From Diospyros lotus (Eukaryota > Streptophyta > Magnoliopsida > Ericales > Ebenaceae): 64,000 nucleotides of DNA. The stretch covers positions 3,415,001 to 3,479,000 of the forward strand of contig NC_068350.1 of NCBI RefSeq assembly GCF_014633365.1. The letters run 5' to 3'. Positions within the stretch are counted from its first letter, which is position 1. Each line of letters begins with the position of its first letter. This document shows, piece after piece, positions 1-44,900 of this stretch. The notes beneath the pieces were generated by a model, which ran no database searches, was not told the DNA's origin, and was given only the letters and a program-made list of their open reading frames with translations. The position numbers were made by a program, and so were the translations under genes.

Positions 1-422
1 TTGATTTCTTCATGGGTTTGATTTCTTCATGGACTTGATTTCTCCATGGGTTTGATTTCTTCATGGACTTGAATTCTTCATGGACTTTAAGTCTTCATGG
101 GCTTGAATTCTTCATGCCTAAAAAAATAAAAATAATTTAATGTTATTAATAAATTATATATTATATATATGTATTACACATGGCACATATATATATTAGA
201 TTATATTATATATATATTACATGCATGCATATAATGATATATATGTATTATATATAATTTTATATATTATTATTATTTACTTTAGAACTTCATTTCATTC
301 ATCTTTCAATTTAAATTTACATATAACCATAAAATATATATTAATATCTAATTTAAACCATATTTAAGATCGAAAGAAGGGTATAATTATAATAAAATTT
401 TTACAAAATTAACCACTAATCA
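1..422 (-). repeat. 3' LTR of the LOG-bearing element, cut by the window edge
   Basis: This stretch repeats 7394-7832 base for base, apart from one 17-bp unit of the Cttgaattcttcatgga type that is present once more in the right copy. On the minus strand the LTR begins TGATTAGTGG at 422, directly after the polypurine tract. Only the first part of the LTR is in the window. Confidence 0.9.
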
Positions 423-436
423 TACCCCCCAACTTA
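423..436 (-). other. Polypurine tract beside the 3' LTR
   Basis: On the minus strand TTAAGTTGGGGGGTA runs directly into the TG of the 3' LTR. This is the place where plus-strand DNA synthesis of an LTR element is primed. Close relatives of this tract recur at about 1864-1880 and 4090-4106. Confidence 0.75.
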
Positions 437-2040
437 AATATTGCTAGTCCCTTAGCAATCAGATTATACACCTGCCAAACTTTATTCACAATAACTATAT
501 GAATGTAAAAATTTCAAATTCGAAACCAAAATGCATAAAATCGAATAAGTAATTTAGCATTCTAAATCAGATTTTTGGTTAAAGGTCGTATAATCTCAGG
601 AATAGAAATTAGGATAACCAACACATAGACTTAGTCCCTCAAAGTTTTGACTTCAAATCTCACTATGAATTTTCTCTCCAATAAAAAGGATTCCTCAGGT
701 GTACACACAAGGGGGTGCACCGTTATAAGAGTAAATGCAGAACAAGTTCAAAACTCGGTGCCATCCCAAATACAAGGAACGTATTTTCATGAAAGAACAA
801 GGAAATTGACATAGCTTCATGATTGGAATAATGCTCTAGATGAGTAACTTCTGAATTTAAACATGATTCCCTACTCCAAACTCGAATTTTGAGATCACAT
901 GATTTATAGCATCAAAAAGGGACCAGAATGGGTTGTAATGGGGCTATAAAGTTAATACGGGTTGTCAAAGAAAAGGTAGAGTGTGCAAAGGGTGTGTCGG
1001 GATTTTTTTTTTTTTTTTTTTTTTACCATTTCTTTTGAAACAGTTATGCTGAATAGCTAAGAGAATTTTCCCCTTTTTTTTCACTTTTTTTTTCTTCTTT
1101 TTTTTTCTTTTTTTCTTTTTTTTCTTTTTTTTTTCTCTTTAAATATGAAAATAGATAAACAGACTAATTCCCAAAATCACACCAAACGAGGGTAACGAAA
1201 GAAATTGTACTACAAATGGCTCAAATGGGATAGCAAAGGAGGTTAATTTAAAGAAAGAAAAAGGTTTAATAAGCTCAAAATGAAAGAAATTGATCCCTCT
1301 ATCATGCTTCTACAAAACGATGATACTCAGTCATCTAATTCAGAGTTTGAAACCAGTCAAACTTATCCATTATCATATTAGACATTCAAAACGAATTGAT
1401 ATTTTGAAGCCATTGAAAAGATAAGATAAACAATAAAACATATTTAGAGTAAGTGTTATTTCACTCAGAATTAACGGTTATTAGGCTCAAACACTCACTT
1501 GGCTAATAGTCTCCACTTCTGTTGAGAGATCATACAGTGTACTAATCAGCTAATTACTGTTACCTTTGACTTTATGACCGATAACCAATTTTTAAATTTT
1601 GAATCCCCGATGAATGCAAATTACTTATTCTAATGCACATACGTTTTCAAATAAGAAATCAATGCATCCATGTTTCGTATTGCAAACTTAACCGGCTTTC
1701 AGTGCATAACTTCAAAACTTTAGGAATAGCGTTATTTGAAACACAAATTTTTTTTTTTTTTTTAATAAGAGCAGATAAAGATAATCAATTCACACAAGAC
1801 TACAAACTAGCAATAGCAAACTCACAGTTAAATATGAACCAGATAATTCATAACTAAACCTTACACCCCCCAACTTGAATTGCAGTAATAAATTAGGGTT
1901 GTTAGGAATACCTGTAACTCCACAAGTTCATTTTGCTGTGAACTGCTAAAACTTAAACAACAAATGAGCACACCATATATATATATATATTTATATTTTC
2001 ATACCAAAATAAAAATTGATGCAAGTCATAAGATAAAAAA
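437..2040 (-). other. Non-coding internal stretch of the LOG-bearing element
   Basis: About 1.6 kb between the LOG-like ORF and the 3' LTR without a convincing reading frame on either strand. It holds long T-rich runs at 1002-1024 and 1070-1140 and at 1748-1763, and a second polypurine-like tract with flanking AACTTGAATTGC at about 1864-1880. It may be the decayed remains of pol or 3' untranslated DNA; no domain could be read in it. Confidence 0.6.
1864..1880 (-). other. Internal polypurine-like tract (copy 2)
   Basis: On the plus strand ACACCCCCCAACTTGAATT resembles the tract beside the 3' LTR (ACCCCCCAACTTAAAT). It could be a second priming site or a relic of an earlier 3' end; activity cannot be judged from sequence. 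Confidence 0.5.
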
Positions 2041-2085
2041 ATGCGTCTCAAGAGTACAAAAAGTACTCCTTACTCAGCCATCTTA
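2041..2085. repeat. 45-bp hairpin repeat, copy 1
   Basis: These 45 bases recur without a mismatch at 2189-2233. Inside is a perfect 6-bp stem and 5-base loop, GAGTAC-aaaaa-GTACTC at 2052-2068. The two outer parts of the unit also occur, split by 20 different bases, inside the viral-like ORF at 3225-3279, so the repeats look like deletion derivatives of that coding region. Confidence 0.8.
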
Positions 2086-2188
2086 TCAAAGACTTTGCTA
2101 ACAACATTCCACAGTTTTGTTTTGTTTTTTTTTTTTTTTTTTTAAAGAACACAATCAAGAAAAATTCTGCGAGTTGTACAATAACTAG

Positions 2189-2233
2189 ATGCGTCTCAAG
2201 AGTACAAAAAGTACTCCTTACTCAGCCATCTTA
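2189..2233. repeat. 45-bp hairpin repeat, copy 2
   Basis: Identical to 2041-2085 and lying just after the stop codon of the LOG-like ORF in the element's sense. In a transcript it would form a short 3'-untranslated hairpin; whether it helps processing or stability is unknown. Confidence 0.8.
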
Positions 2234-2247
2234 ATAAAGAGCATTTC

Positions 2248-2907
2248 TCACAGTGATAAATCTAAATTAATCGGACCCCTTCGGTGCTTGTTACTAATTG
2301 CCTTAGACCAGTCTATCCGAGGCTCATGAGGATCGTACTGTGGAACATAAGCATGTAATTTCTCTAGCAGCTTATCAATGGTGGATGCAGAAATGAGAAT
2401 CTTTCTTGCTGAACGAGAAATGAACTGTTGGTCCACAGCCTGATCAAGAAAAGAGAGTAACCCATCGAAAAAATGGTTAACATTTAAAAGTCCAATGGGT
2501 TTGGTATGGAGATTACTCTTGGCCCAGGAGATTATACAAAAGATTTCTTCAAGTGTTCCAAAACCTCCTGGTAAAGCAATGAAGGCATCTGACTGATAAA
2601 TCTTACAAGCCATGCGCTCAGACATAGAAGTCGTTTCTATAAGTTGACCGCGTGTAATCCCGGAAATATGTGGTTCAGCTAAAGGGATTGGCATTATACC
2701 TACCACAGATGAATTTCCAAGATGTACAGCTTGTGAAACATAACCATTCAATCCACGACTTCCCCCTCCATATACTAAATTAATTTTTTTCTCTCCTAAT
2801 TTTTTACCAAGTTCGTTCTCTGCAAGTGCGTAACAAATATCGCTCCCAAGTTGAGAGCCACAAAATACGCATATGGTATTGATTCGACGAACTAACTGGC
2901 CTTCCAT
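2248..2907 (-). CDS. LOG-like cytokinin riboside 5'-monophosphate phosphoribohydrolase, intronless
   Basis: An uninterrupted 219-residue frame with the hallmarks of the LOG family. LOG enzymes release active cytokinin bases from their riboside monophosphates in the cytosol or nucleus. Visible motifs are the N-terminal strand ICVFCGS (12-18), the nucleotide-binding YGGGSRG (46-52), the conserved Arg in MSERMA (98) and the signature PGGFGTLEE (113-121) with its catalytic Glu. The length matches plant LOGs, but many family positions differ, as in GGGSRGLNG where plants usually have GGGSxGLMG. Plant LOG genes normally have several introns; this copy has none, which points to capture through RNA. 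It lies 167 bases after the viral-like ORF in the same direction, and a possible splice acceptor (TTCTTTTCAG) sits just before its ATG. Enzyme activity is plausible but not shown. LOG-like proteins were once called lysine decarboxylases. Confidence 0.88.
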   Translation of the reverse strand: MEGQLVRRINTICVFCGSQLGSDICYALAENELGKKLGEKKINLVYGGGSRGLNGYVSQAVHLGNSSVVGIMPIPLAEPHISGITRGQLIETTSMSERMACKIYQSDAFIALPGGFGTLEEIFCIISWAKSNLHTKPIGLLNVNHFFDGLLSFLDQAVDQQFISRSARKILISASTIDKLLEKLHAYVPQYDPHEPRIDWSKAISNKHRRGPINLDLSL

Positions 2908-3074
2908 GTTTGTTCCTTTTGTATGTCCTGAAAAGAAGTTTGGCGATCAAAAGTAGCTATACAACAATTCAACAAGAAATAAATACAAACAAAAATCATG
3001 CGTATGTATAAGTAGTTGTGATTGTGGCTCACATCTTCCTCTGGTTTTACGTCCAGAAACGGCTTAAACACTTT

Positions 3075-3620
3075 CTATGAAGCGGGGATAAGCTTCCCAT
3101 CCAATTTTCTTATAGATTGGCAAACATGGTCGTTTTTAGTCAGATTCCCAAGACTATAGCGTTGGTGGTCACTTCTGAACTGGGTCCATAAAGCAAGAAG
3201 TTCTCTTTGCACTATTCCACATGGATGCGTCTCAAGAGTCAATCGGATATCATCCAGAGACTCCTTACTCAGTCCATCCTTTATGAAACTAATTTTATCT
3301 TCTCGATTTATGGACGTAAACCCCACAGATTTGCATCGTGTGTTACAGGTCCATCGAGCACATTTGTAACAACCATTCACTCTTTTCGCTCTTCTTTTCT
3401 TCGCAAAACTACTCTTCCCTAAGCCTGGAAAATGCTTAAAACTAGGTGAAGTTTCACCAGCTAATCGAACTTTTGCTTCGATCAGCCAACGAATATCTTC
3501 AGGGATGTTATTAAGCATCAACAACCTAAGTCTTTCACACCTAGCAACATAAATTTTTTTCAAATCATTCTGCGGGAGAGATGGATAGTACTTGTGAATT
3601 TTTGAGAGATAAAGATCCAT
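3075..3620 (-). CDS. Carlavirus-type cysteine-rich nucleic-acid-binding protein-like ORF
   Basis: An intact 181-residue frame. An N-terminal helix-rich part includes IPEDIRWLIEAKV (39-51), followed by a GKSSFA segment, a basic patch KKRRAKR (74-80) and a compact Cys motif C84-x2-C87-x4-C92-x3-C96. This order, a hydrophobic helix, G-K-S-S, a basic run and then a zinc-finger-like Cys cluster, is that of the small nucleic-acid-binding proteins at the 3' end of carlavirus and allexivirus genomes. Those are known as RNA-silencing suppressors and, in one case, a nuclear transcriptional activator. The loops between the cysteines are shorter than usual and a C-terminal tail of about 80 residues is extra. 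The ATG follows an A/T homopolymer. The viral relationship rests on motif order read by eye. Another possibility is an unrelated basic zinc-binding protein of the element. Confidence 0.6.
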   Translation of the reverse strand: MDLYLSKIHKYYPSLPQNDLKKIYVARCERLRLLMLNNIPEDIRWLIEAKVRLAGETSPSFKHFPGLGKSSFAKKRRAKRVNGCYKCARWTCNTRCKSVGFTSINREDKISFIKDGLSKESLDDIRLTLETHPCGIVQRELLALWTQFRSDHQRYSLGNLTKNDHVCQSIRKLDGKLIPAS

Positions 3621-4089
3621 TTTTTTTTTTAAAAAAAAAAATTATACTAAGAAGAAAGTAAAGAACTATAAACTTTACAAAAGGGATGAGAGTACCTGAT
3701 CGGAGAATAACACAAAGGAGAGAAGATTGAGCTCAAGAGGGGTGACTTGCCTCATACAGATATGGAGTCTCTTATAGAGCAATGGGCATCACTATTCTAC
3801 ACTCGATTCGAGGCATGCCATAATTGCACCGTCAGACTTGACGTCGTTTAGCGTCTCATTTTTCAACATTTGGCAGTGCCTTTTTTTTTTTTTTCAACGC
3901 TCGGCGCCTCTATTTTCAACATTTGGCAGTGTGCCTTCTTTCTTTATAGGGCAGTGTGATTGCACTGCCCAAGAAAAGATGGCTACCACCAACGTCAATT
4001 CTGTCCCTCTCAATTCAATTTTTGTTTTTAATTAATTTTGTTTTAATTTTTGTTTTTTTTTTTTTAGGTAAAATTTTTTAGACACCTTA

Positions 4090-4106
4090 CCCCCCAACTT
4101 AAATTG
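4090..4106 (-). other. Internal polypurine-like tract (copy 3)
   Basis: The plus strand reads TTACCCCCCAACTTAAATTG, nearly the same as the tract at the 3' LTR. It lies between the gag-like ORF and the viral-like ORF, where gag-pol would normally continue, and so may mark the left border of cargo DNA. Confidence 0.5.
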
Positions 4107-4303
4107 CGTATTGTCCTCAATTGGCAATAAAAGGATAGAAGATAGGCATACCTGGCGGTCTTCAATACATAAACTCGTATGGAGAAATTTTATTTAGACT
4201 GCACATAGAGAAACACTAGTTAAGTAATGAAGAAAAGGAACAACTTATATGTATATATATATATATAAAAAATTATTTTATTATATTTTTATTTATTTTT
4301 TTT

Positions 4304-5533
4304 TTAGAATTTTTTTTTTCTTTTCTTCCAATTAAGGATCAAATGAGTGGTTGCCCACCTAATCGTATAATATCTCCCATTCACTACACCACTTTTAAAG
4401 TTATTTTCAAAATTATATAAATTGATTTTTCTCATGAATGCACATATATATTTTGAAAATATATCGTCCGAAGGTGTTGGTTTTATTATATCCGCGTATG
4501 GCACATTAATTTGCACAAACATCTCACACGTGTTTGGTTTAATTTGATCCTCAATAATATCGACTAACCTAAAAGATAGAAATTGAGGGGTAAATGTGGA
4601 TAAACTTATGATTTTTTCACATTTTGGCTCTCGAATTTTATCCTCTTCTTCCTCCCAGGTTTCTTCTTTTCTTACATCATTTTGGTCTTTTTCTTCCTCC
4701 AAGGCTTCATTGACATCTACCTCACTGTGATCAACCACTCTCTTTTCTTGCACCAAAGGGTGTACTGTCCTAGGGGCATCAAGTTTCTCAATTATTTCTC
4801 CATTCCTTAAGACAGTCACTCCTATGTCCTGCTCCTGACTTTCACTTTTGATGATGGGTTTTATTACTTGGATTTTGAGTGAGTTGGGATGGACAGGCTC
4901 TGACATGCTCAAAGTCTGGGTTAGTTGTGTCAATTGGTTCCTAATGTCCTCTGTAACTCTAATGGTATGTTCTTGACATTTGGACATTTGTGTAAAAATT
5001 TCCATTTGGCCTTGCATAAATAGATTGAAGGTATCTTCTAATGAACTCCCATGAGGGGGTTGATATGCATCGAATGTAGACCCTTCATTCGTTTGAAATG
5101 ATTGAGGCTGGGAAAGGAAGTGCTCATGTGGTTGGGCTACAAAATCATTTTCCCATGAGAAATTTAGAGGAAAGTGTGAATTAAGGTGATATGCATCAAA
5201 GTCCGAATGGTAGTTTTCCTCATGGTTCTGGTAATACATTCCCTCATAGTTGTGTGTGTGTGTGTAACTGGATTGACCATACAATACCTCCTTAAAAGCA
5301 GGTATTATAGGGCAGTCATCCGTTAAATGAGCTGAAGTCTCACACACAGCACACCAAACCTCAATTTCATGGTAAGTGGGTAACAAATGGGTAGTGTCTG
5401 GTTGCAAATCAAAAGTGGTTTGCCTAAGAGGGTATAGATAATCCTTAAGAGGTCTAGACAAATCAGATTCAAAATGATAATTTTCATCATGATAAGTATC
5501 TTGAGCAGACAGATTGTAGTAATTTTGAGACAT
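4304..5533 (-). CDS. Gag-like protein with CCHC zinc knuckle
   Basis: A 409-residue frame in element sense. It has a single knuckle C61-x2-C64-x4-H69-x4-C74 within CAVCETSAHLTDDC, followed by CPxxPAFKEVLYGQ, a pattern common in plant Ty3/Gypsy gag proteins. The following stretch is rich in His, Tyr and Asn, then a helical segment around DTFNLFMQGQMEIFTQM and a Glu/Lys-rich C-terminal part. The usual N-terminal capsid region before the knuckle is missing or very short, and no protease or polymerase follows. A separate short frame upstream (about 5620) encodes MRLRSGRIL, which resembles the start of some plant gag proteins, so an intron or frameshift could join them. It probably binds RNA of the element. 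Confidence 0.7.
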   Translation of the reverse strand: MSQNYYNLSAQDTYHDENYHFESDLSRPLKDYLYPLRQTTFDLQPDTTHLLPTYHEIEVWCAVCETSAHLTDDCPIIPAFKEVLYGQSSYTHTHNYEGMYYQNHEENYHSDFDAYHLNSHFPLNFSWENDFVAQPHEHFLSQPQSFQTNEGSTFDAYQPPHGSSLEDTFNLFMQGQMEIFTQMSKCQEHTIRVTEDIRNQLTQLTQTLSMSEPVHPNSLKIQVIKPIIKSESQEQDIGVTVLRNGEIIEKLDAPRTVHPLVQEKRVVDHSEVDVNEALEEEKDQNDVRKEETWEEEEDKIREPKCEKIISLSTFTPQFLSFRLVDIIEDQIKPNTCEMFVQINVPYADIIKPTPSDDIFSKYICAFMRKINLYNFENNFKSGVVNGRYYTIRWATTHLILNWKKRKKKF

Positions 5534-5733
5534 GAGTGTAAAGTTGACAATCCAATTGCAGGTAAAGACTCAGAATGATATGAAAATACTGTTTCAAAAT
5601 TCTACCTGATCTCAGTCTCATATACAATGCACAAACAAAAATAAAGTAAAAGAGAAATAGAGTTACCGATTTTATCAAGAGATGCTTATTCTTTTATTTT
5701 TTTTATTTTTTTCTTTTTGTTTTTGCCTTAATC

Positions 5734-5751
5734 TCCCCGGCAACGGCGCCA
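5734..5751 (-). other. Primer-binding site, tRNA-Asp type
   Basis: The minus strand reads TGGCGCCGTTGCCGGGGA, the complement of the 3' end of plant tRNA-Asp. It lies five bases after the likely end of the 5' LTR and fixes the minus-strand direction of the element. Confidence 0.85.
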
Positions 5752-6600
5752 AAATTTGACTGCACTCTCACCCTGCAATTAAAACACAATAAAAACAAAT
5801 CATAATAAAACTTTTATATTTTTTTTATTTTAGTGAGAGGTTCATACTCGCCAGTGTACGCGTGCAGTTGTAGTCCAAATTTATATTTATATTTTCTGGA
5901 TGAATCCAGGTCGTCCACTGAGAGATTTATTTATGGCAAAAGAAAAAGAATGTCACACACACGCACACGCATTTGGACAAATTGACAACAAGATTTTTTA
6001 TGGTTTTGTTTTTAGACAACAGATACTAGAAAATAAAGTAAGGCAAAAATTGAAATAAACATTAAACGTAAAAATATGAATTTGGATAGTGCTTGAGTTA
6101 AGACAATTTCAGTACCAACCCGTTGATTCCCAAATTTTAGCATAAATGATTAGCAACATTAATTTAATTTCAGATATGAGGATTTGTTATTAAATGCAAT
6201 TAGAGATGATGATAGTTCTAGGTTAAGCAATCCCCATACATGATATGCGGGATTCTAATTTAAGCAACTACCATAAATTCAATTACAATTAATATACAAA
6301 ACAACTAAATTAATCATCCGGATTTGGGTATGATAGCGTTTCCAGTTCTAGTAACTCTCATACATGGCATGAAAGCTCTAAGTTAGGCTTACGCTCCAAT
6401 CCAAACCTAGTGATTTTTTAATAATTAATACACACTCATACTAAAATTTAAATTAATATTACTTATTTAAAGCACAGCTTTCTTTGGGAATCATTGGCGT
6501 TGGACACTGTCCTTGCCTTAACCCAAGATTAGATTTAACTACTCATTTTTATTTGAAAGTTAATTGACATAAATTTAAATGACGTAATTTAAATAACAGA

Positions 6601-6800
6601 ATTTAAATGACAAGAAATTTAAAGGCATAAACTAACCGGCCATTTAGGCGGTGAATAATTAAATGACAAGAATTAAAATTGCAGAAATTTAAAGGCATAA
6701 ACTAACCGGCCATTTAGGCGGTGAATAATTAAATGACAAGAATTAAAATTGCAGAAATTTAAAGGCACAAATTAACCGGCCATTTAGGCGGTGAATAATA
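6601..6800. repeat. 70-bp tandem repeat in the LTR, about 2.5 units
   Basis: Units start at 6621, 6691 and 6761, each with AAAGGCATAAACTAACCGGC followed by an AT-rich part; the third has two changes at its start. Period is 70 bp. Confidence 0.85.
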
Positions 6801-6977
6801 AAGTAATAATAAATGACATAAGAATTTAAAAGAAGAAAGGAAGGAAGTAAGATCACAAGAGAAAATACTAAAGAAAATGAGAGAGAACAAAAGCAATTCT
6901 CAAAGAGAGAATTCTAAGGAAATAACTAAACTTTTATTCAAGAATAATAATCACACTTACAAATGCAATCAAGTGAG

Positions 6978-6987
6978 CTATTTATAG
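6978..6987 (-). promoter_or_regulatory. LTR TATA box
   Basis: The minus strand reads CCTATAAATAGC, a near-ideal plant TATA box, in the middle of the 5' LTR where the U3/R border is expected. Confidence 0.5.
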
Positions 6988-7061
6988 GCCACAAGATGCA
7001 ATACAAACCACACAATTTCAATTATTCAATTAGACATAATTATATCTAATGGGCACTCACA

Positions 7062-7230
7062 CACTTAAAGTTAAATGGATTTTAGCTATAATACACACCT
7101 AATATTAAATGGATTTTAGCTAAAATACATACCTAATAAAGCACTCATAAAGTTAAATGGATTTTAGCTATAATATCCACCTAATAGTTAAATGGATTTT
7201 AGCTAAAAAACACACCTAATAAAGCTCTCA
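7062..7230. repeat. About 40-bp tandem repeat in the LTR, four units
   Basis: Four imperfect copies of GTTAAATGGATTTTAGCTA followed by A-rich spacer and CACCTAATA. Confidence 0.8.
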
Positions 7231-7329
7231 CATAAAAAATAAAAATAGATTTCTATAAATTGGTTTTTAATCTTTATTAGGATTAAAAATAATCCTTGGG
7301 CCTTCTCCAAATAATATCTTCCATGGGTT

Positions 7330-7530
7330 GCTCAAATTGGGCCTTAATTCTTCATGGGCTTGAATTCTTCATGGACTTTAATTTTTCATGGGCTTGATTT
7401 CTTCATGGGTTTGATTTCTTCATGGACTTGATTTCTCCATGGGTTTGATTTCTTCATGGACTTGAATTCTTCATGGACTTGAATTCTTCATGGACTTTAA
7501 GTCTTCATGGGCTTGAATTCTTCATGCCTA
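7330..7530. repeat. 17-18-bp minisatellite in the LTR
   Basis: Many units of the type CTTGATTTCTTCATGGG/A or CTTGAATTCTTCATGGA. The two LTRs differ by exactly one 17-bp unit here, which shows that the array changes quickly. Confidence 0.85.
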
Positions 7531-7832
7531 AAAAAATAAAAATAATTTAATGTTATTAATAAATTATATATTATATATATGTATTACACATGGCACATAT
7601 ATATATTAGATTATATTATATATATATTACATGCATGCATATAATGATATATATGTATTATATATAATTTTATATATTATTATTATTTACTTTAGAACTT
7701 CATTTCATTCATCTTTCAATTTAAATTTACATATAACCATAAAATATATATTAATATCTAATTTAAACCATATTTAAGATCGAAAGAAGGGTATAATTAT
7801 AATAAAATTTTTACAAAATTAACCACTAATCA

Positions 7833-8127
7833 ATTTCCTAGCTTGTGTAGCTAGAGGGCCTACTTGTGTAAGTAAGAGGTTTTAGTGAATTGGTTCAAAA
7901 TCCTTAGTGGGAGCTAAGGTAGTGGATTAGGCTTGGTTTAAGCCGAACCACTATAAATCCTTTGTGTCATTTATTCTTCTTGCTTTACATTTGTCATTTC
8001 ATATGTTCTATGTTTAAAATCACTAAAACCTCAATTGAATCAAAAAGTTTTCAAGTTCTATCAAGATTTTTAAATTATACCAATTCACCCCCTCTTGGTG
8101 TGTGCCATAGCACCTCCCGTTCCAACA
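7833..8127 (+). repeat. Copia-type LTR fragment into which the LOG-bearing element inserted
   Basis: The segment holds a TATA-like CACTATAAATCC and ends in CCAATTCACCCCCTCTTGG and then TTCCAACA, an arrangement typical of the 3' end of SIRE-type Copia LTRs in plants. No primer site or coding part follows, so it is a solo or broken LTR. The start is where the younger element cuts in. Confidence 0.5.
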
Positions 8128-32900: not shown

Positions 32901-35900
32901 AATAGAACAGGAATTAATAATCGTCAACTAACCAATCCAGCTGAGTACAAGAAACAAGAAACAAAAAGGGACATAAATCATAATAGCTAACAACATATGT
33001 TGCAAACAAATTTTTTTCCAACCACCATAAATGCAACTTTTGGTTTGTAATTGAGAGCAAATGTTAAAGATAACTAAGAAAAGGCAAGAAGATGAAATCA
33101 CTCATAAAGTTCATTAAGAACCAATATAAGGGTAGAAATGCATCAGCCAACTTTCAAAAAAAAAATGAATTATACAACACTCCAACTCCATTGAATCGAT
33201 TAAGTTAAAAGGCTAAATATAGAAATCTTTATATAATAGTCTAGGTAGGTATTGACTCAACTTTACAGAATACGCAAGTTTAGAAACTTAGGCTGGTAAA
33301 TCCTAGAACTAGAAGGTCCATAAACAAAGTCCAAAAATCCAAAGCATGAATCACATACTATCACAGGTTGTTCACTTAATTTGGAAATTAGAAAACCATA
33401 AAAAAATCTATAAATCTGAAAAACAAGCAGGCAAAGTTGAAAGAAACATCCAACAAGACTTGCCTCGACCAAAAACGAAGTACTAAAGCTCCAAAAGAGA
33501 GCCCCAAATAATTCCTAGTCATATTTGATTGGTCTATTTACACTGTATTAGTTCAACCACCAAAGAGATATTGAAAGGGTTGAAACTCAAGGTATATGGT
33601 TGTGTGGAGAAAGTTATTTTTTCTTCACACCATCAAAGGGCAATACACAGAGAGAATATATGCACAAAAGAGAAATCCAATCACATCCCTAAAAACTAGG
33701 AATTCTAATCAGCAATCAACTAATCTAGATGGAAAACAGAGAAAGTTAGGAACTGTATAATCTCCTAGCTGTACATTGCCTAAAATAGAGAGATTATGGA
33801 ATATTCTAACACTTTCTCTCAAGCTGGAAAATATAAGTTTGTCATTCCCAGCTTGCCAACAATCTTTTGAAACGTATGACTGGCTAGCCCTTTAGTGAGA
33901 ACATTAGCAAGTTGGTCTCCTAATGGGGCATATGGTGTACAAATCAATCCACTATCAAGCTTTTCTTTTATAAAGTGTTGATCTACTTCCACATGCTTAA
34001 TCTAATCATGTTAAACTGCATTATAAGCGATGCTTATGGCTGACTTGTTGTCACAATATAGTTTCATAGGAGTTTCCCACTCAATTCTGAGATCATCTAG
34101 TATTATCTTGAGCCAAAGAAGCTCAAATTCCCAGTGCCATGGACCTTAACTCAACTTCTGTGCTTGATCTTGCTACTATTAGTTGTTTCTTGCTCCTCCA
34201 CGTGACTAAATTTTCCCCAACAAAAGTGCAATAACCAGATGTTGATCTCCTATCAACTATGGAGCCTACATAGTCTGTGTTTGTGTAGGCTTCAAGACTG
34301 AAGTTTGTAACCTTCTTAAATAGAATTCCTTTGCCCATATGTGCCTTTGAGTAACGAAGAATGCGATATACTGCATGGAGATGTGTATTCTTAGGGTTGT
34401 GCATGAACTGACTCACAACTGACCGTGTAGACCATACATGATTGAGTGTGAAACAAATAAATTAGTCTTCCAACGAGCCTTTGGTACATTCCTTGATCCA
34501 CTGGCTCATCTTTTGTTGCTTCACTAAGCTTGTGGTTGGTTTCAATTGGCATCTCTAAAGGCTTGCATCCTTTTTGCTCGGTCTCATTAAGTAGTCAAGA
34601 ACATACTTTTGCTGTAACATAAAGATTCCACATTTCGACTATGCCACTTCTATTCCCAAGAAGTATCTTAATCGCCCTAAATCCTTAATCTCAAACTCCT
34701 TAGATAGGCATTTCGTCGGGACTTTATTTTCCTTCTCATCATTTCTAGTAACAATAATGTCATCTACATAAAGTAGGAGTGCAATCACTCCCCTTGACAC
34801 TATGTTTCATAAACAAGGTGTGGTCGCCTTAACTTTGTTTATACCTCATTGACAGCATTGCTTTTCTAAATCTACCAAACCAAGCTCTGAGAAATTGTTT
34901 TAATCCGTAGAGTGCAATTTTGAGTCTACACACCTTGTTTGTATTAGTGTCAAATTCCGAAAGGCAGGCCATGTAAATTTCTTCTTCTAGATCCCCATGT
35001 AGGAAGGCATTCTTCACCTCAAACTAGTGTAAATTCCAATCAAAATTTGCTGCCAATGATAACAAGACCCTCATTGTATTCATCTTGGCCACTGGTGCAA
35101 ATGTATCTTGATAGTCAACACTATATGTTTGAGTGTAGCCTTTTGCAATCAATATGGCATTGTATCTCTCCAAAGACCCATTTGCCCTGTATTTCACAGA
35201 AAAAACCCATTTACATCCAACCGATCTTTTTCCTATCGATAAATCAACCACCTCCCATGTTTTGTTTTTTTCAAGTGCATCCATTTCCACTTTGATGGCA
35301 TGTCTCCACTCCTCACTCTCTAGTGCCTCAAATACAGTTTGTGGTATCTTGATGGAGGAAAGGTGGGTGACAAAGCTTTTGTGTGAAGGTGACATTCTTT
35401 CAAAGGTCACAAAATGAAACAAAGGATGGCTTGTACATTTTTGGCTACCTTTTCTAAGTGTAATGGGAAGGTCGAGATCACTCTCATTACTATTTGAATC
35501 TAATAGTGGCAAATCATGGTTAGAACCAATAATAGGAGGAGAGTACTAACCTTTGTGTTTAGCTCAATTCTAGGATTCGGTTTGGACTGTTGAGTGTGCT
35601 TCAGTGAAGTCACGATACTCTTCCTTCTTGAATAAACAAATTCAATACATAGCCTCTGTTCAGGTTCCTGGGTTTTTGGTGGCTAGGAATTGGACTCAAA
35701 CTCAGTTCGGGTTTCAATAGGAGTGGACTCTAAAGAGATTGGTGAGTTAAGCAATTGTGTGGCAAAAATGGGTTGTCACAACCCTAGGGTTTAGAAAGGA
35801 ATTTGGAAGAATTCAATAGAGAAATAGAGAAGAATTGGAGAGAGAGATAGAACTATAGGTGTCAAAAGGGCCGGCCCGGTCCGGCCCGAGTCGGCCCACG

Positions 35901-38900
35901 GGCTTTTTAAACGGGCCGGGCCGGCCCTTTTACTAAAAGGGCCGGGCCGGGCCCGGGCCCTTTTATAATTGATAGGGCCCGACCCGGCCCACGGCCCCCC
36001 TACAAAAGGGCCGGGCCGGGCCAGCCCGTGGGCTAGAGGGCCGGGCCGGGCCCTTAGCCCACAGGGCCTAGTGGGCCGGGCCCGGTGGGCCCGGCCCTTT
36101 TTTTTTAAATAATTTTTTTAAAAATAATACATATAATATATACATATATAAATATCAAAATAATACATATATAAAAATTAATTTGTTTTTTAAAAATATT
36201 TTCTATCTTAATTCTTAAGTTTTAAATATTATTTCATTATTTTATATTTCAAAATTCTATATGCCTTATAATTTTTGTTGTGAATTGATATGAAAAATAA
36301 TGTACATATAAAAAGGAGAATGTTTATTTATAATTTAAATATATAAAAAATTTAACTTAAAAATTTTAAATAAATTAATTGATGGTTATTATTTATATAT
36401 ATTGCGAAATTAAATTTTTTAGCATCCAATATCAATAATTACCTAAGAATAACAAAATTAAAAAAAAAAATGAGTAAGGGCCTTACTGGCCCATAAGGGC
36501 CTCATGGGCCCGGCCCATAAGGGCCCAACGGGCCACGGGCCGGGCCGTGGGCCCAATTTCTTTGGCCCAGCCCGGCCCCCCAATGGGGGCCGGGCTCGGC
36601 CCGGCCCGTATGAACAGTAACGGGCTGGGCCGGGCGGCCCGCGGGCCGCCCGGCCCTTTTGACACCTCTAGATAGAACTGAACAGAGATAACTGAGGGAG
36701 AAGAGATGAAGGAACAAGAGAGAGTTAGGAGAATTAGGAGAGAAGAAACAGAATTACAATTCATTCATCAATATAACATCCATCCTCCTACAAGTAACCT
36801 TTTATAGGCATCAGCTAGCAACTAACATATTCTAGAAACAACACCCATGTGCACTTCAATAGAATTATTAGCATCTCCTAACAAACAATGGTAACTAATT
36901 ACAGTATTCCCCCTTTAATTCCCATTGGGTCATGACAATTCCCCCTCCTTAAAAGGTTTATTGTCCATAAGAGACCTATTACTATTGAGCCGTTGTTATT
37001 CATCTAATCCCAACTTTCTCTATCAGTTTTATTCTTCTTTCTTTCTTTCTCTTTCTAGGACTCTTCCTCTTCGCTCTTATGTTCCTTTGCTTTTGCCTTC
37101 CCTGCAAACATAAACGGTAAACCTCAAGAATCTCCATGCTAATGCTCCCTTCTCCAATGTCCAAACACCCGAACCACATGACAGCAGCCTCCTTTTCCAT
37201 CCTCTTTTGAACCATATGGTTGTTCTCCTATTCAGTCAGTTTCAATTATCCTTTTCTACTAGAGCCAACACCTGTAACTAGTCTATACTATTTTAAGTAA
37301 CAACAAGACTGACGCTCAAAGCAACAGTAGAATTGTGCAAGTCCTCAACCTCCTGCTTCTTTCCTTGGTCCAAGTCCTCGATGCGTGGCTGTCTTTCATT
37401 AGTGACATGGAACCTATCTGCAACATTCTCTTCATCTTACAATGATACTTCATCAGCTTCTTGCAAATATGAATAGTAATCCCCCCCCGATATCCATGTC
37501 TGATTTCTCTTCATTGTCGGCGTTTTTAGTTACAACTGGTCGGTCCAACTCCAATTTTTCCTCAGATTCCTACTTGACATGATTTGTAGCCTTAGAAACT
37601 CCTTTGATAAAATCGATTTTGGCCCTTTCTCCAAATCGAGTACACAAGTTACTTACAAACACTAGCCAGCTCCATTCCACCCTGGCTCTACACCAATTCT
37701 AGAACCAAGCATCGGCCACATCATCGAGATACGTTGTAGCCATGTTCACCTCCTCCCTTTCAGCTACTCTATACTGATAAAACACCCTCCCACACTGTCT
37801 AACCCACCATCTAGGCCTATCCCTTTCAAACGCGGGAATGTCCATCCTAGGCCCCGTAATTTTGTGGTGAGTTCCCCTATTTCCTCTATGGAAGTTCTCC
37901 TCCTTTGCCTCAGCTCTATCCCCTGCCTCCATCGAATCATGTGGTCTCTATCTATTCCTTGGCGTCGTCAAAATTGGCGCCAAGGAAGCCTTGGGGGAAA
38001 AATCCATGGGGAGGTTGGCATTAGGCTACCAAGCAAACATGCTCAAGGCGGCACTCACCTACTAGCTTATTTGCAGGCTTAATCTAGAAAATTTCTCTCT
38101 GAGCCCACTAATGGCTCGATCCAAATTGGTTTGCATTGTCCGATCAGCTCCAACTGACCTCTTCTTGAGTATTTCTAATTCCCAACTCCAATGTTTCCCA
38201 GCGATGATCTACTTGTTCTTGGTTTTGTCGCATTCCAAGCTCAATGGCATCCAATCGAGATTCCATTTGCTTCGCCCGTGTGCCTTCAGCCATAACCACT
38301 GCTCAATTCCATGAGAATTCATTGCTATAACAACCGCTTGCTCAGCTTCTAAGGACCTCTTCGGAAATTTATTCCGGTACTAAATTTCAGCAACCTTAGA
38401 TTCATAGAAGGCTAGATCTAAGTCAACCTTTAGCTATTGCTAAACGGCCTTCAAATCAATTACCCCTCAAACAACCTGTTGGCTCTGGATAATTTCAGAA
38501 GACAACCTGTTCTAATCAGCTTCGGAAACTAGCCCGCAACTTCTAAAACCAACACTTCCGCTGCGCAACTTTGAAAACAAAAACTTCTGTTGCGCAATTA
38601 CTTTCGGAACTTGATTGAATCTGTTTGGCCTCCAAATTTACAAAAAATTCAATCACTGAAACTGCTTCGATAAATCGCCAAGACTTACTAATAATTGATT
38701 GCCTCCAAATCTGCAACCTTAGCAGTTTCAAGTTCAGCCAACCTAATTCCGCCTCAAACAAAATCCACTGAGATTTGGATCTACTTCGCCTTCAATTTTG
38801 GACTTGATTAACTCAAGCAGGAGTCGGCGGCCAACGAACTGCTCGATTAACTTGATCACACTCCGATGTTCAACAATCATTCTTTCCTCTTCCAAATTCA

Positions 38901-41900
38901 CCAGAGTTCCATCACTGGAACCTCACAAAGTAGCCTCGATCAGCCCTATCCTGATTCGCTTAACTCACAAAGTAGTTGAAGACCACCTAACTCATAAGTC
39001 ACAAGCCGAAATTCATCTTCAACTTCCGAACCTAATGGCTACGAGTTTGCCAATTGTTGGACTTGCTTGCAACTACTTGCAATCGCTACAGATTCAAGAT
39101 CACCCAGGCCTACTTCCACGCCTTGCCTTCCTATTCACCTAATCACCGTCCAATGGCCAAAATCAGAGCAACTCTGATATGCCTTCAGAGGTTGCCTAAA
39201 TTCCACTTTGGAAACCACCTTCCTGAATCTTCCAGATCCAATTCGACAGCTGAGGATCGCCGCTCAGTTGTCGTCGAACTAATCGAAGGTCTAGGACGTG
39301 CTCTGTTGCGGTCTCCAGAGGACTCGATGGACTATGTTGTAGCTTCCTGTGAGTTTGATCAGTTCTGTTGCAACTCCTCGAGAGTTCGCCTATATTGCCA
39401 GAAATTCACCTAACACTGATTGCTACCAAGATCGCTGGAATTCGCCTAGCTCTACTTCAATGTACAAGCAAGTGTCAGCTCTCCGAAGCGGACAACAATT
39501 TCGATTAAACAGTAGAATAGAATGAAGGGAGCAAAAAGAAAGAATGAGAAGGTAATTACGCAGAAGCAAGAGAGAGAGAGAGGAATCAAGGATTCTCTGA
39601 TAAATTCGTACATAACCGTAGGAAGGAATTCAGCACTATATATAGCTGGATTCCTATCCTTCAATGAGCTGTAACCGCCCACATGCATGAGAATGTACCT
39701 GCTGCTAATACAGCAACTGATTTAGTATAACCCTCACAGCTAGCTACTATCATATGCTCTGTTTCTACCCTTAACTATAGATAATTGTAGCAACACTCCC
39801 TTACAGCAGGTTATTACATGACAATACCCCCTCTCATCAAAATTTTCTTGTCCTCAAAAAATATTAAGGAGGCTTGCAGCTCGGGGAAATTGATTAAGTA
39901 GATCTGGGAGGTATTCTCAGGTATTATCATCTGCGTGTAGGCCCGACCAGTTGACTAATACTTGAGGGATGGGGGCTCCATGCTTGTAGATCACTCTTTT
40001 ATCCAGAATGGCTCTAGGTTCTTTAGGCTGCTCCACACTTTGTATAGAATTAGGCAATGTAGGACTGACTTGTTGTTCAGACACTGACTTCTTGAGAAGC
40101 GAAACATGAAATATAGGGTGGATGTTAGCATTCTCTGGAAGCTGTAGTTTGTAAGCGACACTGCCCACCCTGGCAGTTATTAAAAATGGCCCATGGTATT
40201 TGGGTTGCAGCTTTGAGATAGGTCCTAGGGATGGGGACTTCAAGTGTCTTGGGTGTAATTTCAAGTAGACTCTTTCCCCTTCTTGGAACTGCCTATCACT
40301 TTTCTTTCTATCCGCGAATTGTTTCATTCGGTTCCTAGAATTGGCCAACTCGGTCTTAATCAGTTGTAGGGCCTGCTGTCTTTGCTGGAGGTAGGTATCT
40401 AAGGCTGCCACTGAGGATGTCTCTCCAACCCCCGGAAGTAATGGTGGTTTGTAACCGTAAAGTGCTTCAAAATGGGACCTTTTGATGGCACTATGGTGGC
40501 AAGAATTGTACCACCACTGAGCAGTGGCCAGCCACTTGTGCCATGATTTTGGTTGCAGGAAACATATACACCTCAAGTACATTTCTAGTCTTTGGTTTAC
40601 CCTCTCCGTTTGCCCATCAGATTCTGGGTGATAGGTTGTTGACATGTTCAACTTGACTCCCAATAGTTGCATTAGCTCCTTCCAAAACAAGCTAGTGAAA
40701 ATTTTATCCCTATCCGATACTATAGCCTTGGGTACTCCATGCAATGCTACTATCTGGTCCATGAAGATTTTAGCAATTTCCCTAGCAGTATATGGATGAG
40801 ACAGCTCCACAAAGTGGCTGTACTTGGTGAATTTGTCTACTATTACCATGATACAATCCTTACCTTCTGACCTTGGAAGTCCCTCAATGAAGTCAATGGA
40901 GATGCTCTCCCAAGACCCCCCCTGGAACATTCAATGGCTATAATAGTCCCAAATAGGCCACGTTTTCTGTTTTGCACCTCTTGCAAGTGTCACACCCCAT
41001 TACAAATTCCATAACTTCCTTCTTGCTACTGCAAATGAGTGTTTAGCTGTTGTTGCAATAAAAATTTCAGACTCTCATGGTCTGTCTTGATCACAAATGT
41101 GCCTCCTTCTAAATAGTGGCGCCATTTATCCACTGGCAACAATACAGCCAGCAATTCCTTCTCATAGATACTTAATTCCAAGTGCTTAGGTGCCAGGGCT
41201 TGGCTCAAGAAGGCTAGGGGTCTGCCCTCTTGAACCAACACAACCCCGATTCCACTAGCACACGCATCCGTTTCAAGTACGAAGGGTTTGCTGAAATCCG
41301 GCAACCCCAACGTGGGAACATTGCTGACAGCTTGCTTAAGGTCTACAAATGCTTTTTCTGCCTCTAGACTCCAATAAAACCCATCCTTCTTCAATAATTC
41401 GATCAGGGGTCGACTGATGACTCCATAGTTTTTGACAAACCGGCAGTAGTAGCCCGTCAGCCCCAAAAATCCCCTCAGCCCTCTTACATTGATAGGTCGC
41501 GGCCAGCCTAACATGTTGCCACTTTGCTAGGATCAGTGCTCACTCCAGTTTTAGATATGATGTGACCCAAGTATTCCATTTGTTTTTGAGCAAAGGCACA
41601 TTTTGACTCTTCAATATACAATTGATTGAACCTAAGGACCTCAAATGTGACTTTTAAGTGGTAGATATGCTGATCAAAGGAGGAGCTGTAGATTAGAATA
41701 TCATCGAAGAACACCAAAATGAATTTGCGGAGGTAGAGTTCAAAGATTTGATTCATCAATGATTGGAAAGTAGCCGAGGCATTAGTCAACCCGAAAGGCA
41801 TTACAAGAAATTCATAATGCCCTTGGTGGGTCTTAAAGGCTGTCTTGTGAATATTTTCGGGTTTCATCCGAATCTGATGATAACCCGACCTAAGATCTAA

Positions 41901-44900
41901 TTTGGTAAAAACAGTGGCATACTTAAGTTCATCAAGTAAATCTTCTACTATAGGTATGGGAAATTTGTCTTTAATGGTTATGGAGTTTAGTTGTCGGTAA
42001 TCAACACAAAATCTCCATATTCCATCTTTCTTTTTGACAAGCAAAACAGGTGAGGCAAAGGGACTGTTGCTGGGTTGGATGATAGATTTACTTAACATAT
42101 CCTTGATGAGTAGCTCAATTTCAGATTTCTGTTTAGGGGAGTATCGGTAAGATCTTAGGTTCACAGGCTCGGCTTGAGGTTTCAAGTTAATAGAATGATC
42201 AAAAGCTCTTTTGGGTGGAAGGAAATGGGGTTCAGCAAAGAGGTCCTTATACTCAATCAAAAGTAGAGTAAGAGAGTCTAGTTCTTGTACCTTTCTTTGG
42301 TTGGATGTCTTACTGCTGACCACCACACATATCTCTCCTTCTTGTTTAGGGGTTTCCTCGGAAATTTCCACCGTATGGAGGGAGAAGAGTTGAGCCACCT
42401 TTGGAAATCTGCCCCTGAACATTCTTCTCAGCCGTTTACTCGAGATGATTTTACACACCCCCACCTCCACATTGCCCGGTAGGACCTTTTTGCTACCATC
42501 CTTCTCGAAAGTCACCTCCATCTTATTGAAATCGAAGCTGATTGGACTCACTCCCTTCATCCAATCCACCCCCAGCACTACATCACAACCTCCCAACTTA
42601 AGCAGCCTAAGATCTGTTGAAAATCTTTCTTCGTTCATCTCCTAGCAGAAACCCTTACAAGACGACTGGCTCACCACCTTGTTGCCATTGGCAACCGTTA
42701 CTGATAGGGAATGGGACAGGCTTACCTCACACCCAAGTCTCCTCGCCACAGCTTCATCCAAGGAGCTGTGAGTACTCCCACTATCTATGAGAACCATGAT
42801 CGGCTAATTGTTCACTCTTTCTTCCACCTTGATAACCTCACTGTTGTTCACCCCCTTCAAGGCACGTAAAGAGATCTCCCCTTGGTCCTCTTTCTCATTT
42901 TCTGAGAGTTCTTCTCCTTCCTCAGTTTCCTCGTCTTCCCCTTCCAATAGCAACAACCGCCTCTTACACTTGTGTCCCATGAAGTACCTATCCCCACATT
43001 TGTAGCATAAGCCAGCTACCCTCCTTTATTCCATCAGTTTACCTCCCATGGTCGGTACGGGATTGGTGGAAGGTAGGGCTAATACGCCTCTACCGTTGGA
43101 CCCCCCTTCTCTTGGTGCCAACCTATTCCCTGATTGCCATCCTCCTGTTATCACCCCCCTCGTTTGATTCCTCTGTTTTTTTATCATTGCTTCAACGATC
43201 ATTTCCTGCAGCCTTGCACCTTCCACTGCTTGCTTCACCATATGGGGCTGTCACATTTTTACCATAGGCCGCACCTCATCCCCTAAGCCGCTGATGAAGC
43301 TCGAGACATAGTACTCCTCAGATAGCTGAGGGTTGTGCACCATCATCATCGATCTCAGCTCCTCGAATTTTTGTTGATAGGCCTGGACCGTTCCTTTTTG
43401 TTTGAGCTTATTAAACTCTTTGATTACATCCCTCATGCTTTTATCTTCGAACCTCACGCAAAGGTCCTCTACAAACACACTCCAAGGGCTTCCCTCCTTA
43501 ACCGCAAGTCATGTCTGATACCAAGCATCTCCCATATCATTCAAGTAAGCAGAAGCCAAAGTGATCTTTTGTTGTTCCGGAATTTGATATAGGGAGAAGA
43601 CATCTTCACGTCCACCACCTCGGATTCTCCCCCTCAAACACTGGAATCTCGAGCTTTGGCATGGGATAATTTGGGTTGTGCCGATTAACCGATGCTTCTT
43701 GCCTCCTTTCTCTTACATTCTCCCCCACCATGTCCGTATCGAACTCAAACTCCGACGTTCCTATCGGTCGCAGTTCTACTCCCACTCTAGGAAAAATGGG
43801 CTCCGTTCTTTCCCTCAAGGGAAACTCAGGAGAGAACCTTATGGGTTGTTGATTGGTGAACATCCGCACAATCAACTGTATTTGCTCCATCAACTGTTCC
43901 TGCAACAGGTTGCTCTTCGCGACTCTCCACCCTCCAGCTTTCCATCGCTTGGTCGATCCGGGAATCCACTCCATCTCCAATAGAGGTTTCGAGTGTTCCC
44001 ACTCAATTTTGCATCTCTGTTATTATCGCCGTCACCTGCTGGAGCTGAGACTCCATTTGCTTCATCCTCGTTCCGTCGGCCATGATTATAATTTCTTGCA
44101 AGTATCGTTGACGCCCAAGAGCTGCTCTAATACCAGGTTTGTCAGCTCTCCGAAGCGGACAACAATTTCAATCAAACAGTAGAATAGAATGAAGGGAGCA
44201 GAAAGAAAGAGAAGGTAATTACGCAGAAGCAAGAGAGAGAGGAATCAAAGATTCTTTGATAAATTCGTACATGACCGTAGGAAGGAATTCAGCACTAGAT
44301 ATAGCTGGATTCCTATCCTTCAATGAGCTGTAATCGCCCACATGCATGAGAATGTACCTGCTACTAATGCAGCAACTGATTTAGTACAACCCTCACAGCT
44401 AGCTACTATCATATGCTCTATTTCTACCCTTAACTATAGATAATTGCAGCAACACCCCCTTATAGCAGGTTATTACATGACAGCAAGTCGGATCGGAATG
44501 ACTGAATCTTAGCCTAGAACTGTCGAAATTACTTAAGAGAGAGATTGGCCGAGGAACGATGGCTCTGATACCAAATGTCACGACCCTAGGATTAGGCTAG
44601 GGTTTAGAAAGGAATTCAGAAGAATTCAGGAGAGAAATAGAGAAGAATTGGAGGGAGAGACAGAACTGAATAGAAATAATTGAGAGATAAGAGAAGAAGG
44701 AACGAGAGAGTTAGGAGAATTAGGAGAGAAGAAACAGAATTACAATTCATTCATCAACATAACATCCATCCTCCTATAAGTAGCCTTTTATAGGCATTAG
44801 CTAGCAACTAACATATTCTAGAAACAACATCTATGTGCACTTCAATAGAATTATTAGCATCTCCTAACAAACAATGGTAACTAATTACAGTATTGCTCCT

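Follow-up and report, generated by a model that had tools for sequence, protein, structure and literature searches.

A virus-type protein and a LOG-derived protein encoded as a pair in LTR retrotransposons of Diospyros lotus

Plant retrotransposons with long terminal repeats (LTRs) often bear extra open reading frames (ORFs) of unknown use. The question of what such frames do is raised by a 64,000-nucleotide stretch of the Diospyros lotus genome (the window, C13:3415001-3479000), which starts inside an LTR retrotransposon of the minus strand. This element encodes a LOG-family protein and a nucleic-acid-binding protein (NABP) of viral type, and the pair offers testable guesses for two of the extra frames. 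A preliminary description, made from the sequence of the window, placed the two ORFs where pol should be and regarded them as the cargo of a non-autonomous element. Gag-pol relatives of the element show instead that the pair lies 3' of pol, at the position of env-like ORFs.

The NABP-LOG pair in gag-pol families

With a gag and protease protein (P0245) as the query, 62 of 4818 candidate copies were scored. The matches split in two groups with 95-100% and 75-81% identity across the first part of the query. Listed open frames among them are 1846 amino acids (aa) long for nine copies and 1861 aa long for another ten, 3 of the 19 with an internal stop. One gag-pol copy per group, on C11 and C5 (copies A and B), was picked by its gag and long open frame, not by LOG. 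Both carry an open NABP of 181 aa, 88% and 92% identical to that of the window, and an open LOG of 219 aa, 85% and 87% identical, whose end is an LxLxL tail; in both, the pair sits between gag-pol and the 3' LTR. Gag, protease, reverse transcriptase, RNase H and integrase were recognised in the C11 copy, the last three by Pfam. The LTR pairs of the two copies are 99.6% and 99.9% identical. Since the pair is intact 3' of pol in the gag-pol copies, its place is among the 3' accessory genes of gag-pol elements.

This is the position held by the env-like ORFs of Athila-type elements. The 18 bases of the primer binding site are identical between the gag-pol relatives and the window's element, where the primer is presumably tRNA-Asp. 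A primer of this type, which we take to be an Athila trait, and extra ORFs 3' of pol are typical of Athila, not exclusive to it; by structure, we assign the group to Athila-type Ty3/gypsy elements. The NABP-LOG pair occurs in three families of this genome. Unlike the gag-pol families, the window's element has neither pol nor capsid, and with its LTR pair, primer site, polypurine tract and 5-bp duplication it has the make-up of a non-autonomous element. The idea of a non-autonomous element with cargo thus holds for the window copy, but gag-pol families carry the same pair too.

The element extends 1654 bases leftward past the window start (copy L009). Its LTRs show 21 differences over 2074 sites (Kimura two-parameter distance, K2P, 0.0102; 99% identical) and the target duplication is found at both ends, in keeping with the young age first ascribed to it. 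The end originally placed at 7832 was right, as the 5' LTR ends there and the ATTTC duplication adjoins it. NABP and LOG are both open and lie within these borders (Table 1), which removes the concern that misplaced LTR borders had drawn them into the element.

Table 1. Features of the retrotransposon at the start of the window
Feature	Position in window	Strand	Remarks
3' LTR	1-422	-	full copy C13:3413347-3415422; cut by window start
Polypurine tract	423-435	-	AAGTTGGGGGGTA on minus strand
LOG-to-polypurine-tract spacer	436-2247	-	without long ORF, fast-evolving
LOG-family ORF	2248-2907	-	219 aa; Arg98 and Glu121 kept; pocket Lys to Met99, Glu to Cys124
LOG tail codons	2251-2292	-	basic stretch and LxLxL, NKHRRGPINLDLSL (EAR-type); modelled with low confidence
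NABP-to-LOG spacer	2908-3074	-	
NABP ORF	3075-3620	-	181 aa; KKRRAKR basic patch, Cys84/87/92/96 cluster; viral NABP family
gag-derived ORF	4304-5533	-	409 aa; without capsid domain
Primer binding site	5734-5751	-	complementary to tRNA-Asp 3' end
5' LTR	5757-7832	-	2076 bp, TG...CA
Target site duplication	7833-7837	+	ATTTC (element sense GAAAT); second copy beside 3' LTR, C13:3413342-3413346

A LOG query of the 630-Mb genome gave at least 150 matches, the only ones scored among 1132 candidates and selected by LOG similarity; among those listed, the window's own is 100% identical and the others 96-98%. We examined 44 of the 150, as 20 ten-kb stretches (the window's included) and 24 short ones. 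Two LTRs of the same orientation are present in 15 of the 20 ten-kb copies (K2P 0-0.0102). Eleven of the 15 show, by eye, a matching 5-bp duplication (L009, L010, L018, L019, L021-L024 and L026-L028), three are units of a tandem array and one is not judgeable for duplication. The remaining five stretches have one, no or oppositely oriented full LTRs. The LOG ORF is intact in 43 of the 44 copies and the NABP ORF in 29 of the 40 stretches that cover it. The pair is thus found in the same order between LTRs and intact in many copies, and its ORFs are not decayed in all relatives of the window's element, two points on which the preliminary description had asked for a check.

Several copies have individual peculiarities. 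L012-L014 (C11:16474200-16498700) form a row of four LTRs alternating with three units, with ATATG at the outer two ends only, and this array probably arose by unequal recombination. The entire gag region is missing from L024, and L026 lacks most of gag together with the primer site, but LTRs, duplication, NABP and LOG are retained in both. By eye, no pol was seen inside the ten-kb copies of odd structure, L011, L017, L020 and L025; L020 has an RNase H-like frame outside its LTR. On the minus strand of the window's element (L009), there are three instances of the polypurine 11-mer AAGTTGGGGGG, at 425-435, 1866-1876 and 4090-4100, two of these away from the LTR, and each of the 20 ten-kb stretches has one to four. 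The extra 11-mers could be central polypurine tracts or scars of recombination. The LTR contains a repeat of about 70 bp in three copies and a 17-bp tandem repeat (window 6589-6819 and 7321-7560). Farther along the window, at 35024-47095, separate ORFs resemble, by eye, pieces of copia and other gypsy gag/pol.

Selection on the encoded proteins

Comparison between families shows that both NABP and LOG are under purifying selection at the protein level. In the coding frame, the ratio of nonsynonymous to synonymous substitution rates (dN/dS) among the window copy (W), A and B is 0.19 (W-A), 0.27 (W-B) and 0.16 (A-B) for NABP, and 0.34, 0.30 and 0.28, respectively, for LOG. The other two frames give 0.92-1.95 for NABP and 0.68-1.23 for LOG. 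The test compares three sequences, of which A and B were taken for their open gag-pol; because they were found by gag, it is free of bias from LOG or NABP similarity. The dN/dS check proposed in the preliminary description accordingly gives values well below 1 for both ORFs. Within the window's family, the corresponding polymorphism ratio (pN/pS) of LOG is 0.18 against 1.0-1.1 in the other frames, which we do not take as the main proof because LOG similarity was the criterion for choosing these copies; that proof is the comparison between families. The gag-derived ORF has a within-family pN/pS of 0.63, against 0.40 and 0.89 in the other frames.

Polymorphisms were also compared with a random expectation (transition weight 3, stops left out), those found in at least two copies being counted as shared. 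Shared polymorphisms of NABP in 40 copies number 12 nonsynonymous (N) and 12 synonymous (S), with 17.4 N expected (p 0.02; two further stops), and its singletons are neutral-like (34 N, 16 S, p 0.53; four further stops). LOG has 5 N and 17 S shared (p 2e-6) and 27 N and 23 S singletons (p 0.007), in a sample biased by its selection. The gag-derived ORF has 14 N and 8 S shared (p 0.33) and an excess of N among singletons (42 N, 6 S, p 0.03; five further stops). Between ten-kb copies, substitutions per site are highest in the LOG-to-polypurine-tract spacer (0.035) and lowest in the NABP-LOG spacer (0.005); the former spacer diverges by 0.11-0.19 (Jukes-Cantor distance) between families.

No Pfam family matches the gag-derived ORF, not even with a threshold of E 10. 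Its residues 55-223 (4865-5371) match the nucleocapsid and linker of a true gag (P0245 residues 216-392), and the capsid domain of P0245 (33-126) is unmatched. By a strict test the frame is whole from start to stop in 4 of 20 copies, the window's included; L017 fails this test but retains 398 open codons. The region is 98% identical among copies despite the frame being broken in 16 of 20. The gag-like character initially attributed to the ORF holds for the nucleocapsid and linker part, but not for a capsid or for general integrity. Maintenance of this ORF was considered and rejected, with 4 of 20 copies intact and shared polymorphisms that fit neutrality.

The NABP-LOG spacer was also inspected. 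The DNA directly after the NABP stop encodes, in frame, KVFKPFLDVKPEEDVSHNHNY, and its first 65 bases show one silent difference among the window copy, A and B, against a NABP dS of 0.15-0.46. Stop-less relatives read nearly the same peptide: P0049 has FKPFLDVKPKEDVSHNHNY, then NLSLSL, and P0098 has FKPLLDVKPEEDVSHNHNY. By eye, there is a donor-like GTGAGC at 3032 and an acceptor-like TTTTCAG ending at 2928, 20 bases before the LOG start; the latter site reads TTCTAG in copy B. The near-invariant stretch may act in splicing or in readthrough. Folding of the spacer RNA is not unusually stable (z 0.79), which gives no support to a structured signal for readthrough. Fusion of NABP with LOG through splicing of the spacer was rejected, since by eye the frames do not fit.

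The LOG-derived protein and its virus-type partner

The LOG ORF matches PF03641 (E 3.8e-33), has the Rossmann LOG fold and the PGGxGTxxE motif, and passes the TIGR00730 subfamily model of NCBIfam (145 bits, cut-off 96). Its structure model is confident (pLDDT 87.6) except for the last nine residues, which are poorly ordered (48). The closest match in the PDB is Arabidopsis 2a33, with 48% identity over 178 alignment columns, and the sequence match agrees. The protein had been described as having the full LOG signature; Arg98, PGGxGT and Glu121 are indeed present, but the Lys and Glu of the adenine/prenyl pocket are replaced by Met99 and Cys124. The window LOG misses the NCBI cytokinin phosphoribohydrolase equivalog, a model for prokaryotes (91 bits against 300).

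The replacement recurs throughout the relatives of this protein. We took the best 120 of the 7879 relatives reaching E 1e-10 among 8000 scored and divided them into 7 host-type and 113 element-type proteins, a split that relies on their sequences, names and tails and takes no account of genomic context. Six rows with a missing anchor motif were dropped from the pocket table, which leaves 97 main element-type, 10 Xanthoceras-like and 7 host-type LOGs. Among the 97, the catalytic Arg is kept in 94, the catalytic Glu in 95 and the Thr of PGGxGT in all 97; the pocket Lys is found in 2, the prenyl-site Glu in 1 and His97 in 27. All 7 host-type and all 10 Xanthoceras-like LOGs keep all these catalytic and pocket residues. 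In CgLOG, the proposed prenyl site is lined by Lys100, Glu125 and His97 (PMC4979012; this and the other papers given by PMC number are cited from excerpts), and a Lys156Ala mutant of type-II CgLOG lost all activity (PMC5379747). The loss of the pocket Lys and Glu in nearly all relatives makes cytokinin activation by the element LOG, as assumed at the outset, doubtful, even with the catalytic Arg and Glu kept. In a tree of 33 LOG rows, a 100/100 branch splits 6 host rows from the element-type rows, with Xanthoceras P0183 adjoining. The Xanthoceras-like LOGs (P0125-P0127, P0156, P0159, P0183, P0193-P0195 and P0198) combine a normal pocket with the absence of the LxLxL tail, which suggests an intermediate or a second capture.

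An exact LxLxL end is found in 90 of the 113 element-type LOGs (27 of the 34 clusters formed at 75% identity) and in 0 of the 7 host-type LOGs; the window LOG ends in LDLSL. A basic pair lies within the 11 residues before LxLxL in 88 of the 90 rows, and this basic stretch is a candidate nuclear signal. The EAR motif is defined as LxLxL or DLNxxP (PMC6283911, PMC9956375), and the effector RxL21 binds TOPLESS through a C-terminal LxLxL (PMC7446885). We read these proteins as LOGs that kept the cutting residues, altered what they bind and gained a short linear tail. The element-type tail is also borne by database genes named 'LOGL10' in Diospyros and Populus (P0121, P0154, P0158 and P0204), which are probably transposon genes annotated as host genes and, under that label, could mislead cytokinin studies.

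NABP scores above the curated cut-offs of PF05515 (34.9 bits, cut-off 23; E 2.1e-8) and PF01623 (21.1 bits, cut-off 20.9; E 3e-4), the families Viral_NABP and Carla_C4, respectively, which bears out the carlavirus-type layout of basic patch and Cys cluster first noticed by inspection. At E<=0.001, 35 of 39 NABP relatives match PF05515 and 33 of 39 match PF01623. Cys87, Cys92 and ten further positions are invariant in the 39 rows, and Cys84 and Cys96 nearly so. There are 527 relatives at E<=0.01, and the best 120 listed include proteins of Populus, Orobanche, Acer, Xanthoceras and Rhamnella. Three Orobanche gene models (P0044, P0078 and P0113) join NABP and LOG domains, two of the three having been rescanned, so that the gene order is common to Lamiales too. 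NABP and LOG relatives are also found on source contigs of equal size (P0004 and P0143, 8723; P0014 and P0196, 4511). As protein matches, NABP and LOG each have relatives in several orders of eudicots. Among IMG/VR viral contigs no NABP relative was found by single sequence or by alignment. The LOG alignment matched 23 IMG/VR loci at 23-47% over parts of the protein, which were set aside as too distant to be the element LOG family. A betaflexivirus replicase has been reported in a plant genome, in an excerpt that does not name NABP (PMC3136472), and the carlavirus protein p12 is a transcription factor that causes hyperplasia and a weak silencing suppressor (PMC12172455).

A proposed role of the pair and its place among known systems

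We interpret the window's element as a recent, pol-deleted copy of an Athila-type Ty3/gypsy group whose NABP and LOG would be nuclear accessory proteins dampening host defence or silencing, a reading to which we give a probability of about 0.5. The LTR transcript would serve as the source of both proteins, perhaps after splicing, as happens for env-like ORFs, and the proteins would work in the nucleus on behalf of the element. NABP would bind nucleic acid and weaken silencing or alter transcription, like its viral relatives. The LOG-derived protein would most likely recruit TOPLESS-type corepressors through its basic stretch and LxLxL tail, and its substrate would be a nucleotide different from the usual cytokinin ribotides, unless catalysis has been lost; it is the changed pocket together with the tail that favours this combination. 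Host defence or silencing would thereby be dampened in the cells that transcribe the element. A number of results weigh against this reading. The pair was inspected in just one copy per gag-pol family, NABP is broken in 11 of 40 copies of the window's family, and its within-family pN/pS (0.415, against 0.43 in the other frames) carries no signal. Profile scores are what link NABP to the viral proteins; it is modelled with low confidence (pLDDT 63.8), and a viral fold search with this model gave no match that passed E 0.001, the best viral match having E 0.17, with several betaflexivirus NABPs among the first ranks. The 23 of 113 element-type LOGs without the exact LxLxL end include short or fused models, the near misses P0128 and P0163, and six Xanthoceras rows with KKRRLA or KKRKLA ends. 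Ten other LxLxL effectors showed no TOPLESS binding in yeast (PMC7446885), and LxLxL on its own is a weak predictor of such binding. The conserved catalytic dyad argues against a purely non-enzymatic role, as the altered pocket does against a normal one.

The same doubts about LxLxL lend some weight to the possibility, tentative as it is, that both ORFs are selected but the tail serves particle assembly, RNA packaging or contact with NABP, with LOG as a structural or nucleotide-sensing subunit. NABP and LOG stay together, LOGs form dimers (PMC5379747), and one NABP, P0049, has lost its stop and then likewise terminates in LSLSL, all of which would suit such a role; the basic pair just ahead of LxLxL in 88 of 90 rows fits a nuclear motif better. 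By analogy with their families, the preliminary description proposed that NABP may suppress silencing and that LOG, as an ordinary cytokinin-activating enzyme, may promote cell division. The LOG fold, the TIGR00730 match, purifying selection, the catalytic residues kept in nearly all rows and the hyperplasia likewise caused by viral p12 (PMC12172455) are consistent with this proposal. We consider it unlikely given the pocket Lys and Glu gone from 95 and 96 of the 97 main element-type rows and kept by all host-type and Xanthoceras-like LOGs, the inactive Lys-to-Ala mutant, the lining of the CgLOG prenyl site and the score short of the prokaryotic phosphoribohydrolase model. Very improbable is that the ORFs are functionless captured passengers, open merely because the copies are young. 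The 15 LTR pairs are indeed recent, and the gag-derived region still shows 98% identity with its frame broken in 16 of 20 copies; but the between-family dN/dS, well below 1 in no frame other than the coding one, relatives with invariant residues in several eudicot orders and the presence of the pair in gag-pol families all argue against it. An extension of the reading as nuclear accessory proteins, which we regard as improbable in its full form, would make the pair an anti-host module spread across eudicots along with its non-autonomous derivatives: a host LOG turned nuclear effector, with a pocket changed so that the retained N-glycosidase dyad works on another signalling nucleotide (for example an immune one), a TOPLESS tail and a virus-type silencing-suppressor partner. 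If the proposed functions are true, transposons join pathogens as TOPLESS-targeting agents, and a retroelement and RNA viruses share a counter-defence gene family.

The pair is real, conserved and partly known. Athila-like Ty3/gypsy elements reportedly carry an extra ORF with similarity to LOGL4, in work by Steinbauerova and colleagues from 2011. A YgdH domain of the LOG family is described in LTR elements of Citrus sinensis, C. clementina and Populus trichocarpa (PMC9289625, citing a 2011 report). The preliminary statement that no retroelement with such genes had been described therefore fails for the LOG half; for the viral half or the pair no report was found in the literature covered. In the literature searched (few subscription papers, partial listings), none joins Carla_C4/Viral_NABP or carlavirus proteins with plant retrotransposons, nor was a report found of an EAR motif in a retrotransposon protein or of a changed pocket in element LOGs. 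The LOG half is an extra ORF of a known kind; new here are its altered pocket and LxLxL tail, the viral-type protein that accompanies it and the occurrence of both in gag-pol families.

The Ty3/gypsy elements of the published account have the same LOG-family ORF inside plant LTR elements; its section 12, as excerpted, is without mention of a virus-type partner, LxLxL tail or pocket change (PMC9289625), and Diospyros adds a pol-less family and its gag-pol partners in one genome. Compared with plant LONELY GUY (Arabidopsis At2g37210, PDB 2a33), the element LOG has the same fold, catalytic Arg and Glu and PGGxGT, but its pocket Lys and Glu are replaced, it bears the basic and LxLxL tail, and it is encoded by one uninterrupted ORF in an LTR element. 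NABP shares with the carlavirus, vitivirus and trichovirus proteins (PF05515, PF01623) the basic patch followed by a Cys cluster, and differs from them in being retrotransposon-encoded, 181 aa long and conserved in a C-terminal part beyond the matched stretch 39-119. The effector HaRxL21 (PMC7446885) has the same short C-terminal LxLxL on a protein foreign to the host gene set, whereas that of the element LOG is retrotransposon-encoded and a motif predicted from sequence. Retand, Ogre and Athila elements of the OTA superclade likewise have accessory ORFs outside gag-pol, which encode other proteins, for example Transposase_28 and the plant mobile domain (PMC11963269, PMC6317226).

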